Shown here one piece after another: positions 19,317 through 24,741 of a stretch of DNA of 26,049 nt. The notes under the pieces were generated by a model, which worked only from the letters and a program-made list of their open reading frames with translations, made no database searches and was not told the DNA's origin. This stretch comes from a virus. Location: positions 1-26,049 of IMG/VR virus record IMGVR_UViG_3300027754_000379. One strand, written 5' to 3'. Every line of letters begins with the position of its first letter. The first letter of the stretch is position 1. The translations under genes were made by a program, and so were the position numbers.

Positions 19317-19359
19317 TAGTAACCCTTTATTTGACAAGGGTACTAAAAGATGTTATAAT
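19317..19359 (+). promoter_or_regulatory. tRNA-cluster promoter, copy 1
   Basis: TTGACA (19331-19336), 17 bp, TATAAT (19354-19359), extended TG. First copy of a 43-bp unit repeated at 19402 with only two changes. The -35 box lies in the loop of an inverted repeat ACCCTT/AAGGGT. Confidence 0.88.
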
Positions 19360-19401
19360 TGTTTTTTAGATAATAAAAGTTGTCTGAGAAACAAAAATTT
19401 A

Positions 19402-19444
19402 TAGTAACCCTTTGCTTGACAAGGGTACTAAAAGATGTTATAAT
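19402..19444 (+). promoter_or_regulatory. tRNA-cluster promoter, copy 2
   Basis: Second copy of the 43-bp unit: TTGACA (19416-19421), 17 bp, TATAAT (19439-19444). Start near 19451, about 50 nt before tRNA-Ile. Confidence 0.88.
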
Positions 19445-19580: not shown

Positions 19581-19656
19581 GTCCCGTTCATCTAGAGGCC
19601 TAGGATCGTGCCCTTTCACGGCATTCACACCAGTTCGAATCTGGTACGGGACACCA
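19581..19656 (+). tRNA. tRNA-Glu (TTC)
   Basis: Acceptor GTCCCGT/ACGGGAC, anticodon stem GTGCC/GGCAT (closing G:T) with loop CTTTCAC, T arm CCAGT.. TTCGAAT form, A73 and encoded CCA. Confidence 0.93.
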
Positions 19657-19800
19657 TTATAAAGTGTTATCAGGGTATCGTGATCTGATCAATCACTATG
19701 CGGGCCTAACTGTGCGAGGAACAGGTCCTAATATAACCGCTATTCGCTTGTCAGAGGACGCACCTTTGTTGACAAATCGGCAGATAGCACTTTATAATGG
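19654..19800 (+). ncRNA. structured tRNA spacer closed by an 18-bp stem
   Basis: Bases 19654-19671 pair with 19783-19800 (18 bp, one G:T). The 5' arm starts with the CCA of tRNA-Glu and the 3' arm ends 3 nt before tRNA-Cys. Inside are three helices: GTGAT/ATCAC (19680/19692) with a 7-base loop, GCGG/CCGC (19700/19737) extended by GCCT/AGGT, and TTGTCA/TGACAA (19748/19770). This makes a four-helix junction of about 147 nt that is not a tRNA. It recalls the stable RNAs of unknown role in the T4 tRNA cluster. Whether it accumulates is unknown. Confidence 0.6.
19769..19798 (+). promoter_or_regulatory. possible sigma70 promoter before tRNA-Cys
   Basis: TTGACA (19769-19774), 18 bp, TATAAT (19793-19798). 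Start expected at about 19805, the first base or two of tRNA-Cys. It lies in the 3' part of the structured spacer. Confidence 0.5.
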
Positions 19801-19803
19801 TAC

Positions 19804-19881: not shown

Positions 19882-19889
19882 AATAATGC

Positions 19890-19918
19890 TTGACACAAGT
19901 GTGTTAAGATGTTATAAT
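19890..19918 (+). promoter_or_regulatory. consensus sigma70 promoter for the large RNA
   Basis: TTGACA (19890-19895), 17 bp, TATAAT (19913-19918), extended TG. The expected start near 19925 is two bases before the first helix of the large RNA. Confidence 0.87.
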
Positions 19919-19924
19919 TAAGTT

Positions 19925-20410
19925 AATTAATTGGGGTTACCCGCACCAGTAGGTAATATAACAAGTGTTCAAGTCGACGGACTAGAGCTTCTATATTACA
20001 CGAAAGATGGAAACGAAGCCGCAAGGTTGATACGGTGGTCACGCTGGAGTATGTAGGTCTGTAATGTTGAGGCAGAAGGCACAAGAGACGGTTTTGTGAG
20101 ATATGCGTAGTCCCCCAATTAAAAAGTTTTTGGTCTGTTAGTGTTAGCGGTAAGCACGCGAGCCTGTCACGCTTGTAGCAGGGATTCGAATTCCCTACAG
20201 ACCGCCAGAACCCGCCGGAGTAACGTCTGGCTAGTATGACCCGTACGAAGCGAAGTGAGTTCGTCACTCAAGGGTGGTAGTCTTTTTACCGAAAGGCCGT
20301 TGGCAACACGATAGCAGTCCTTGCGGGGAGCGGGTGGAGGGTACGAATGAAGAATATGATAGCGTCATGTTTGGATGTACTATAATTACCGCCGGAGGAT
20401 GTAGAGCATT
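19925..20410 (+). ncRNA. large structured RNA with embedded tRNA-Asp (GOLLD/ROOL-like candidate)
   Basis: About 490 nt between a consensus promoter and tRNA-Leu with no credible gene. The 5' domain is closed by 10 bp (19927-19936 with 20113-20122) and contains an 8-bp helix GTAATATA/TATATTAC (19953/19992), a GNRA hairpin AGCC-GCAA-GGTT (20017-20028) and CACAA/TTGTG (20080/20094). Then comes an intact tRNA-Asp (20132-20207). The 3' domain is closed by ACCCGC/GCGGGT (20210/20330) and holds ACCC/GGGT (20239/20272) around AGTGA/TCACT, GGTA/TACC (20276/20287) and TATGA/TCATG (20355/20365). CCGCCGGAG occurs twice (20212-20220 and 20390-20398 region). Large phage RNAs GOLLD and ROOL lie near tRNAs and some GOLLD RNAs contain one; this is shorter than the roughly 800 nt of GOLLD. 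Family name uncertain, structured RNA likely. Confidence 0.65.
20132..20207 (+). tRNA. tRNA-Asp (GTC) inside the large RNA
   Basis: Acceptor GGTCTGT/ACAGACC, anticodon stem CGAGC/GCTTG with loop CTGTCAC, T arm AGGGA/TCCCT with TTCGAAT, G73 as expected for Asp, encoded CCA. Processing by RNase P would split the large RNA into pieces of about 207 and 203 nt. Confidence 0.94.
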
Positions 20411-20487
20411 GCCTAGGTGACGGAATTGGTATACGTGTCAGTCTTAGAAGCTGAATTTTGAGAGTTCGAGTCTCTCCTTAGGCACCA
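20411..20487 (+). tRNA. tRNA-Leu (TAG) without a long variable arm
   Basis: Acceptor GCCTAGG/CTTAGGC, Leu-like D arm (GACGGAATTGGTATACG), anticodon stem TCAGT/GCTGA with loop CTTAGAA, T arm GAGAG/CTCTC with TTCGAGT, A73 and CCA. Only five bases (ATTTT) separate anticodon stem and T stem, whereas bacterial tRNA-Leu has a long variable arm. Confidence 0.85.
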
Positions 20488-20567
20488 TATTGAAACATAT
20501 TAAAGATAGGTCGTAGAGGTTCCAAGAACTTTATACATACCAAGAGTGTTAGTATATTTCAATATGG
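20485..20567 (+). repeat. inverted repeat spanning the tRNA-Leu/tRNA-Ala spacer
   Basis: CCATATTGAAA (20485-20495) pairs perfectly with TTTCAATATGG (20557-20567). The arms include the CCA of tRNA-Leu and the first two G of tRNA-Ala. The 61 nt inside contain a hairpin around GAGGTTC-CAA-GAACTTT. No gene seen here. Confidence 0.7.
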
Positions 20568-20748: not shown

Positions 20749-20937
20749 ATGAACTCAACTGAAGACATCAAAACAAATCTCGAGGCATATCTTGCTGAGA
20801 ACGATAAATTCGAAAAAGGTAATAATGCTGCAGGGACTCGCGCCCGTAAGGCATTAGGTGAACTTGCAAAAGCTGTTAAAGCTAGACGCAACGAAATCAC
20901 TGCAGAAAAGAACGCTCGCAAAGAAGCGAAAGCGTAA
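20749..20937 (+). CDS. HC1-like (histone H1-like) small basic protein
   Basis: A 62-residue protein. The segment FEKGNNAAGTRARKALGELAKAVK closely resembles the conserved core of the histone H1-like HC1 family (K-G-N-x-A-A-G-T-R-x-R-K), named after the chlamydial nucleoprotein and common as short open frames in bacteria and phages. The C-terminus is helical and charged (ARRNEITAEKNARKEAKA). Such proteins are presumed to bind DNA, and the phage may use it on its own or host DNA. A ribosome site (AAGGAA) precedes the ATG. It sits between tRNA-Pro and tRNA-Asn and is probably on the same transcript. Confidence 0.8.
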   Translation: MNSTEDIKTNLEAYLAENDKFEKGNNAAGTRARKALGELAKAVKARRNEITAEKNARKEAKA

Positions 20938-22387: not shown

Positions 22388-22528
22388 ATGAAACTTAAGA
22401 TGATCGTCAAGCAACGTAATCGCTTCGTTGCTTTGGCATTACAACGCAAAGCGGGAGTCCATCGTAAAAGCAATAAAGCTTTGCGAAGGCAACATAATGC
22501 GAGTATAGCTCAGTTGGTAGAGCAGTAG
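22388..22528 (+). CDS. small basic conserved phage protein overlapping tRNA-Lys
   Basis: A 46-codon gene with a ribosome site (TAGGAG). The product contains RNRFVALALQRKAG followed by HRKSNKALRR. This pattern (R-N-x-F/L-V-A ... R-K-A-G-x-H-x-K-S-x-K-A-x-R-R) is shared by short basic proteins of many tailed phages, from memory, with no known role. Its last 10 codons run into tRNA-Lys and the stop lies in the tRNA at 22526-22528, so one transcript can be either translated to the end or cut for the tRNA. Confidence 0.75.
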   Translation: MKLKMIVKQRNRFVALALQRKAGVHRKSNKALRRQHNASIAQLVEQ

Positions 22529-22574
22529 ACTTTTAATCTATTGGTCGTGGGTTCGAATCCCCCTACTCGTACCA
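22499..22574 (+). tRNA. tRNA-Lys (TTT)
   Basis: Acceptor GCGAGTA/TACTCGT, anticodon stem GTAGA/TCTAT with loop CTTTTAA, T loop TTCGAAT with one mismatch in the T stem (GTGGG/CCCCC), A73, encoded CCA. Confidence 0.93.
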
Positions 22575-22582
22575 TATAAAAG

Positions 22583-22652
22583 CACTCTTGTCAGCACTGT
22601 GGGAAGCGCAGATAGACAATACTAGAACAAGGTTCGAATCCAAACAAGAGTG
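22583..22652 (+). pseudogene. tRNA relic in the tRNA-Lys/tRNA-His spacer
   Basis: A 70-nt segment with a 9-bp closing stem CACTCTTGT/ACAAGAGTG and a T-loop-like GGTTCGAATCC, but no normal D or anticodon arm and GTT instead of CCA. An outer inverted repeat CCATATA/TATATGG (22572-22578 and 22657-22663) encloses it. Probably a decayed tRNA kept as a spacer hairpin. Confidence 0.6.
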
Positions 22653-22668
22653 TTTCTATATGGTTTAT

Positions 22669-23286: not shown

Positions 23287-24741
23287 ATGAAAATTGTTAT
23301 TTTAGGCGGCGGCACCGCAGGATGGTGTTGTGCATTATTTGCTAAAAGTGTTTTTCCGCAAAGCGAAATTACCTTAGTTCAAAATAAAGAAATTGGCATA
23401 ATTGGTGTAGGTGAAGCTACTACACCTCACCTTATTACTTTTTTACGTAATGTTGGAATTAATCCTGTAGATGTTATTAAAGAAACAAATGGCAGTATAA
23501 AAAATGGAATTTGTTTTGAAAATTGGAATGGTGATGGGAAAAAATATTTTCATGGATTTGGAGAAAATCTATCTGATTTTAAAGTAACTAATGTTTTTGG
23601 AACTACTAGTACTGATTTCTTTTTAAAGAAATTAATCTATGAAAATAAAAATATTGATGAGTATCGATATTTACCAGCATTATCATTTAATAATAAAGTA
23701 GACGTTGTTAATACATCCTGGGCTATTCATTTTGATGCTAACAAATTAGCAGACTATATGGAAAGAGTTGGGTGCGTACGGGGTGTTAAGGTAACCGAGG
23801 GTCTATACAAAAATTCTATATTAGATGAGCATGGCAAAATAACAAAAATTTGTTTTGAAGATTCTTCGGAATTAGAATGTGATTTTGTATTTGATTGTTC
23901 TGGATTTGCTAGATTATTAGTTGGTGGATTATATAAAGAAAAATGGAAATCATATTCAAAATATCTACCAATGAAGAAAGCAATTCCATTTTGGTTAGAG
24001 TCTGAAGACGAAATTCGCCCCTATACTAAAGCAATTGCTATGAAATATGGCTGGATGTGGAACATCCCATTACAACACAGAATTGGATCTGGGTATATTT
24101 TTGATTCAGACTATATAAATGAAGAACAAGCATTAGATGAAGCAGAACAATACTATGGAACTAAATTAAAAATTAATAAAATTATTCCATTTAATACCGG
24201 CAGATTAGAAAATTTTTGGGTTAAAAATTGTATGTCGGTGGGACTTGCTTCTAGTTTTATTGAACCATTGGAATCAACTTCATTATGGGTAACCGTGAGT
24301 CAGTTAGATACATTTAGACAATTTCTTAATGAGATAAAAGAAACTGACCAAAAAAGTATAGATTTATTTAATACTATAATGTCTAATACGTTAGATAAAA
24401 CAATGCATTTTATATATTTGCACTACATAACAAAACGTAATGACAGCGATTTTTGGAAAAACTTTAGAAAAGATTATCCGGTACCTAAAGAATTTTCTAA
24501 TTTATTAGAAAAAATTAAATCTGGAAATATTAGATATTTTGATTTTAAAGATTCAAAAGCATCAGCTGTATTTGAATTAAATAATTATTTACAAGTTTCT
24601 GCAGGCATTGATATTTTTGAAAAACAACTTAATATATCTGCATATGAACTAGTAAATCCTACACCGGATTCGTATAAAGAACTTATTAATATGAAAATCA
24701 AACAAGCTATTTCGCATAGAAATTTTTTAAACGGGTTATAA
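23287..24741 (+). CDS. tryptophan-halogenase-like FAD-dependent enzyme
   Basis: A 484-residue flavoprotein of the flavin-dependent halogenase family, which uses FADH2, oxygen and halide to chlorinate or brominate an aromatic substrate. The FAD site is G7-G-G-T-A-G12 followed by GVGEATTP (40-47). The catalytic Lys of the family fits K72 in SIKNGICFENW. The halogenase fingerprint W-x-W-x-I-P is W256-M-W-N-I-P261, and FIEPLESTS (324-332) is the conserved C-terminal FAD/substrate block. Length is slightly below PrnA (538). Halogenase-like genes are known in cyanophages, without a proven substrate. It is flanked by tRNA-Trp and tRNA-Gly; a separate flavin reductase is not in the window. Whether it halogenates free Trp or something else is open. 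Confidence 0.9.
   Translation: MKIVILGGGTAGWCCALFAKSVFPQSEITLVQNKEIGIIGVGEATTPHLITFLRNVGINPVDVIKETNGSIKNGICFENWNGDGKKYFHGFGENLSDFKVTNVFGTTSTDFFLKKLIYENKNIDEYRYLPALSFNNKVDVVNTSWAIHFDANKLADYMERVGCVRGVKVTEGLYKNSILDEHGKITKICFEDSSELECDFVFDCSGFARLLVGGLYKEKWKSYSKYLPMKKAIPFWLESEDEIRPYTKAIAMKYGWMWNIPLQHRIGSGYIFDSDYINEEQALDEAEQYYGTKLKINKIIPFNTGRLENFWVKNCMSVGLASSFIEPLESTSLWVTVSQLDTFRQFLNEIKETDQKSIDLFNTIMSNTLDKTMHFIYLHYITKRNDSDFWKNFRKDYPVPKEFSNLLEKIKSGNIRYFDFKDSKASAVFELNNYLQVSAGIDIFEKQLNISAYELVNPTPDSYKELINMKIKQAISHRNFLNGL

Follow-up and report, generated by a model that had tools for sequence, protein, structure and literature searches.

The region between 19890 and 20410 of the phage DNA analysed here is a true structured non-coding RNA region, and it consists of two independent RNA families, called d5 and d3, that flank an ordinary tRNA-Asp. 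The original prediction was of one elaborately structured RNA of about 490 nt, possibly of a new class, located in a phage tRNA island and made of two domains with an embedded tRNA. Covariation and the lack of a conserved frame support the structured, non-coding character of the region, but the single-RNA part of the prediction is not supported, since each of the two families can be found without the other. The best explanation, with a probability of roughly three in four, is that d3 and d5, along with the linker elements lGC and lLA, are separate, stable, trans-acting putative phage non-coding RNAs carried as cassettes in the tRNA array. This reading is based on covariation (in d3, d5, lGC and d5L3, an element that can replace d5), the absence of a conserved frame, the independence of the modules, their adjacency to tRNAs, the near-universal single copy of d3, and the precedent of RNAC/RNAD, GOLLD and ROOL.

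The stretch of DNA analysed (the window) is a 26 kb virus fragment from IMG/VR. On sequence grounds it belongs to a T4-like phage, with predicted genes for a UvsX-type recombinase, a DnaB-type helicase and a family B DNA polymerase whose nearest relatives are those of Synechococcus myoviruses (about 50% identity). A tRNA array runs from 19503 onward and contains more than 20 tRNAs. Just 5' of the array, two tandem perfect consensus promoters (19331-19444) lie inside a partly duplicated 43-bp block. A 62-aa basic, histone-H1-like protein (20749-20937) has relatives in hundreds of viral contigs, and many of the loci scanned for it have no tRNA nearby. A tryptophan-halogenase-family protein (23287-24741; Pfam E 2e-111) is encoded within the array, and inspection by eye reveals a very short, strongly basic open frame with the start MKLKMIVKQRNRFVALALQRKAG between tRNA-Gln and tRNA-Lys (22388-22500), in linker DNA that is conserved in 40 loci.

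Relatives were collected from IMG/VR using one exact word, the neighbouring histone-like protein and motifs for each element, which yielded about 360 loci, and the elements were then counted in these loci by blastn and iterated nhmmer. About 135 loci carry d3, with a few overlapping or repeating a contig and 92 copies distinct in sequence; the corresponding numbers are 76 for lGC, 52 for d5L3, 46 for d5 and 39 for lLA. The contigs that bear d3 reach 524 kb and include very large phages. Fourteen of the 15 records with a match have a single d3, one of the 15 being a partial match whose full extent was recovered with the covariance model, and the 524-kb record has two copies. The model scores 202.7 bits on the window (20210..20407) and has no match in T4, Synechococcus phage S-SRM01 or Vibrio phage D479. 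The d3 family is widespread in uncultured phages, yet at blastn sensitivity it has no match in 50,697 isolate phage records, and blastn of each element and of the distant subfamily against isolate phages likewise returned nothing meaningful. The single genome_contigs match (L366) fails the d3 model and is not counted as d3. A search for a spaced nonamer, CCGCCGGAG-N-CCGCCGGAG, gave mostly chance matches in GC-rich contigs.

Folding energy is unremarkable for d3, which has no excess stability over shuffles (z +0.56), and only modest for d5 (z -2.2), and so comparative evidence is needed and decisive. The best supported of the elements is d3 (about 20210..20407, + strand; about 200 nt). When an alignment of 72 distinct sequences was tested with a tree-based null, 13 covarying pairs emerged at E<0.05, each of them canonical in 94-100% of the sequences. 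The E-values are coarse, since the null was generated by a script of our own, patterned on R-scape, and comprised 40-60 alignments. In an independent MAFFT alignment of 42 d3 sequences, the proposed structure pairs 97.5% of the cells and has two-sided changes at 23 of 45 pairs. Controls with slid partners gave at most 49% of cells paired and at most 8 pairs with two-sided changes, and the shuffle control gave 0 of 500.

The hairpins of d3, all on the + strand, are 20234-20237/20243-20246, 20256-20259/20267-20270, 20280-20284/20293-20297, 20298-20300/20308-20310, 20341-20344/20377-20380 and 20353-20359/20365-20371. The loop sequence ACCC (20239-20242) forms a pseudoknot, PK1 (20239..20275, + strand), with GGGU (20272-20275). 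All 72 of the 72 sequences can pair here, and the changes are compensatory, from A-U to G-C (three sequences) and from C-G to A-U (one sequence). A further position (column 77), the third, varies with the A-U to G-C change, going from AUA to GCG in the manner of a base triple. Two long-range helices on the same strand close the molecule in our structural model (span 20276..20399): GGUA 20276-20279 with UACC 20387-20390 is nearly invariant, and UCCU/CGG 20318-20326 with 20392-20399 is kept by a compensatory change from C-G to U-A. Helix H1 is 83-86% paired, a count that is understated because the H1 alignment is off by one column between two subfamilies. The 3' helix that had been expected between ACCCGC and GCGGGT (20210/20330) does not hold up, as the four pairs tested are paired in 59.7% of cells, no better than shuffles, and most relatives have A opposite G. 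The nonamer CCGCCGGAG does occur in both flanks of the 3' domain (20212-20220 and 20389-20397), as had been noted, but the repeat is incidental, since the two copies differ in their partners and the main subfamily lacks the 5' one.

The first element behind the promoter is d5 (about 19927..20122, + strand). The predicted consensus promoter is a perfect sigma-70 sequence, TTGACA-17-TATAAT at 19890-19918, agreeing with the consensus at 12 of 12 positions. Its extended form, TGCTTGACA-N17-TATAAT (19887..19918, + strand), lies immediately 5' of d5 and overlaps an inverted repeat; the extended motif has three exact copies in the window against 0 expected, and never appears in shuffles. A 34-nt promoter block is conserved both in relatives with d5 and in those where the unrelated d5L3 replaces it, arguing that the position after this promoter is a slot for RNA cassettes. 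The replacement element, seen outside the window (L003:377-594), is a structured RNA of about 200 nt behind the same promoter, and two of its canonical pairs covary significantly (E<0.05).

Within d5, three canonical pairs covary at E<0.05 (19972/19983, 20083/20095 and 20085/20093). Two of the helices proposed earlier are present in the sequence and show compensatory changes in distant d5 relatives, namely the 8-bp helix 19953-19960/19992-19999 (89% of cells paired) and the GCAA hairpin 20017-20028 (83%). The proposed 10-bp closing helix (19927-19936/20113-20122) is also in the sequence, and close relatives change T-A to C-G within it, but distant ones do not keep it. No open reading frame is conserved across the d3 or the d5 family, in agreement with the earlier view of the region as lacking a gene, and a protein-coding reading was rejected on this basis.

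The d3 copies are closely associated with tRNAs. All but one of the 92 distinct copies have a tRNA within 500 nt; in 49 of 84 cases no more than 10 nt separate the start of d3 from the tRNA upstream, and its end is equally close to the tRNA downstream in 39 of 82. With the ends so commonly placed, tRNA-maturing enzymes would release d3 as well. Transcription from the promoter at 19887-19918 would generate a d5-tRNA-Asp-d3-tRNA-Leu precursor, from which, to judge by position, the RNAs would be released by RNase P at tRNA 5' ends and by host nucleases acting at tRNA 3' ends. Once freed, d3 would fold up as a compact particle with a pseudoknot and act in the course of infection. The exceptional copy, in L239, is flanked by protein genes, and the nearest 500 nt contain no tRNA, and so tRNAs are not strictly required by d3.

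Other linkers of the array also hold conserved elements, all of those in the window being on the + strand. The tRNA-Glu/tRNA-Cys linker contains the structured RNA lGC (19655..19801), in which six canonical pairs, among them the outer stem 19661-19662/19792-19793, covary at E<0.05. The tRNA-Leu/tRNA-Ala linker contains a long hairpin element, lLA (20486..20566), for which the covariation test gave no significant pairs. Both linkers are far more stable in folding than their shuffles (z -4.8 for 19654-19803 and z -4.3 for 20485-20565). In most of its loci lLA adjoins d3, often directly 3' of it, and with such close linkage some elements could be pieces of one longer RNA. Another conserved linker element is lKH (22572..22664), which is closed by a long stem and contains a T-arm-like GGTTCGAATCC. 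It is 98-100% identical over its 17 loci, all of them close relatives, and is possibly a decayed or modified tRNA. A further element of 76 nt (L003:671-746, about 20 loci) sits between tRNA-Asp and d3. It is absent from the window and from L001 and present in most close relatives, where it is 96-100% identical though their d3 copies differ more.

Because the elements sit flush between tRNAs, and because the long closing stems of lGC and lLA bring neighbouring tRNA ends together, one might regard all of them as cis-acting linkers whose folds present or protect cleavage sites for the correct maturation of the tRNA precursor. We consider this improbable as a general account, although it is the strongest of the alternatives. 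The 200-nt tertiary-type fold of d3 and its invariant unpaired bases are kept whichever tRNA adjoins; d3 is found about once per genome while tens of tRNA linkers have none; and one d3 occurs without tRNAs. A linker role is a better fit for lLA and lKH than it is for d3 or d5. A second alternative, that d3 is a ribozyme or a ligand-sensing RNA switch, draws on its pseudoknots, the co-varying AUA/GCG triple and the long invariant unpaired runs, which are typical of RNAs with active or binding sites. We judge it less likely still, since d3 has no constant downstream gene to regulate and matches no known ribozyme or riboswitch family.

The preferred reading, of separate trans-acting RNAs, draws on the independence of the modules, which is evident from how they are arranged. 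The tRNA-Asp (GUC) that separates d5 from d3 is intact, as had been claimed (20132-20207, + strand; ARAGORN; 55.6 bits with Rfam RF00005), and is an ordinary tRNA. In L003, L202, L211 and others, d3 stays while the unrelated d5L3 occupies the d5 slot or its equivalent. Of the 35 d3 loci flanked by 3 kb or more on each side, 14 have neither d5 nor d5L3. Where a pairing occurs, d5 or d5L3 is upstream of d3 in 76 of 86 cases and downstream in the other 10, and d5 may be separated from d3 by as many as ten tRNAs and more than 2 kb. Replacement by d5L3, missing 5' elements, reversed order and intervening tRNAs together exclude, as a general layout, one continuous RNA of the GOLLD type in which a tRNA is embedded. 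One multimer-forming, GOLLD-like RNA with d3 as its conserved 3' domain, d5 or d5L3 as its variable 5' domain and the tRNA as linker would fit the layout of known GOLLD and the prevailing order of the pairings, but is very unlikely given these arrangements, the lack of an Rfam GOLLD match and the presence of true GOLLD as a separate gene in L256.

Few phage non-coding RNAs have been described (21 were counted in a 2021 paper, PMC8545117), and here one tRNA array has led to several new RNA families with independent covariation support. This suggests that phage RNA machines are generally housed in tRNA islands, and the presence of d3 in more than 100 uncultured phage sequences and in no isolate points to a hidden repertoire of functional RNAs that infecting phages produce. 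The company that d3 keeps (tRNAs, permuted tmRNAs and, once, GOLLD) makes translation, or the tRNA machinery that these phages remodel, its most likely target, though we offer this tentatively. It is conceivable, on a similarly speculative footing, that the tRNA arrays of freshwater and large phages carry an interchangeable set of RNA machines with at least five families (d3, d5, d5L3, lGC and lLA), in which d3, as a pseudoknotted RNA of 200 nt with a putative active or binding site, would be catalytic or ribosome-directed and play a novel role in infection. The d3 covariance model can be used to find further members, and the old question of the role of the extra stable RNAs in T4-type tRNA clusters becomes testable by comparison.

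The element families are previously uncatalogued, as judged by Rfam and the open-licence literature, and a description elsewhere is possible. A permissive Rfam search (E up to 10) of the window at 19882-20410 and of segments from L003 and L223 returned only tRNAs and sub-threshold chance matches. One such match, to the permuted tmRNA family (RF04321), overlaps d3 but starts in the T-arm of the neighbouring tRNA-Tyr and scores 22.7 bits against a cut-off of 47. Genuine permuted tmRNA genes occupy the same tRNA regions in five relatives (L224, L227, L245, L256 and L318) but are separate genes; the tag peptide is ANDEQFALAA in L224 and L227.

The GOLLD- or ROOL-like identity first suggested for the region was not upheld, since the Rfam search returned neither family. 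For GOLLD (RF02032, gathering threshold 150 bits) the segments of the window, L003 and L223 all lack a match, and the same library detects GOLLD at 160 bits in L256. This GOLLD RNA (L256:10928-11336) belongs to a phage contig of 286 kb that also carries a d3 copy, about 1.9 kb upstream of it. Like d3 and d5, GOLLD is a large structured phage RNA known from tRNA islands and lake metagenomes, and it sometimes contains a tRNA. It differs from d3 in its length, often more than 800 nt compared with about 200, in having no sequence or structure match, and in being a separate gene from d3 in L256. Its single-transcript layout, in which the 3' region is conserved, the 5' region is less so and the linker at times holds a tRNA (PMC12286853), is not that of d5 and d3, which are independent and vary in order. 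ROOL is likewise a structured phage RNA found by tRNA islands, and pull-downs show binding of GOLLD to ribosomes (PMC12286853). In no search do d5, d3 or lGC match the Rfam ROOL model.

T4 RNAC and RNAD are late RNAs of unknown function, seen on Northern blots (PMC9697503). They are 119-139 nt long and resemble d3 and d5 in being non-coding and in lying beside tRNA genes in a T4-type phage (PMC9697503, PMC3014915), and d3 is of the same functional kind insofar as it, too, is non-coding and comes from the tRNA cluster of a phage. A tRNA-like T-arm is present in T4 RNAC but not in d3 or d5. Homology was not detected: covariance model R1 scores at best 0.9 bits over the T4 RNAC/RNAD segment with filters off, HMMs of the five families found nothing convincing there, and a GAACGTTC block common to T4 RNAC is a coincidence according to the covariance model. 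The best reading by analogy is that d3 and d5 resemble the RNAs of tRNA islands, RNAC/RNAD, GOLLD and ROOL, in their putative role and not in family membership.
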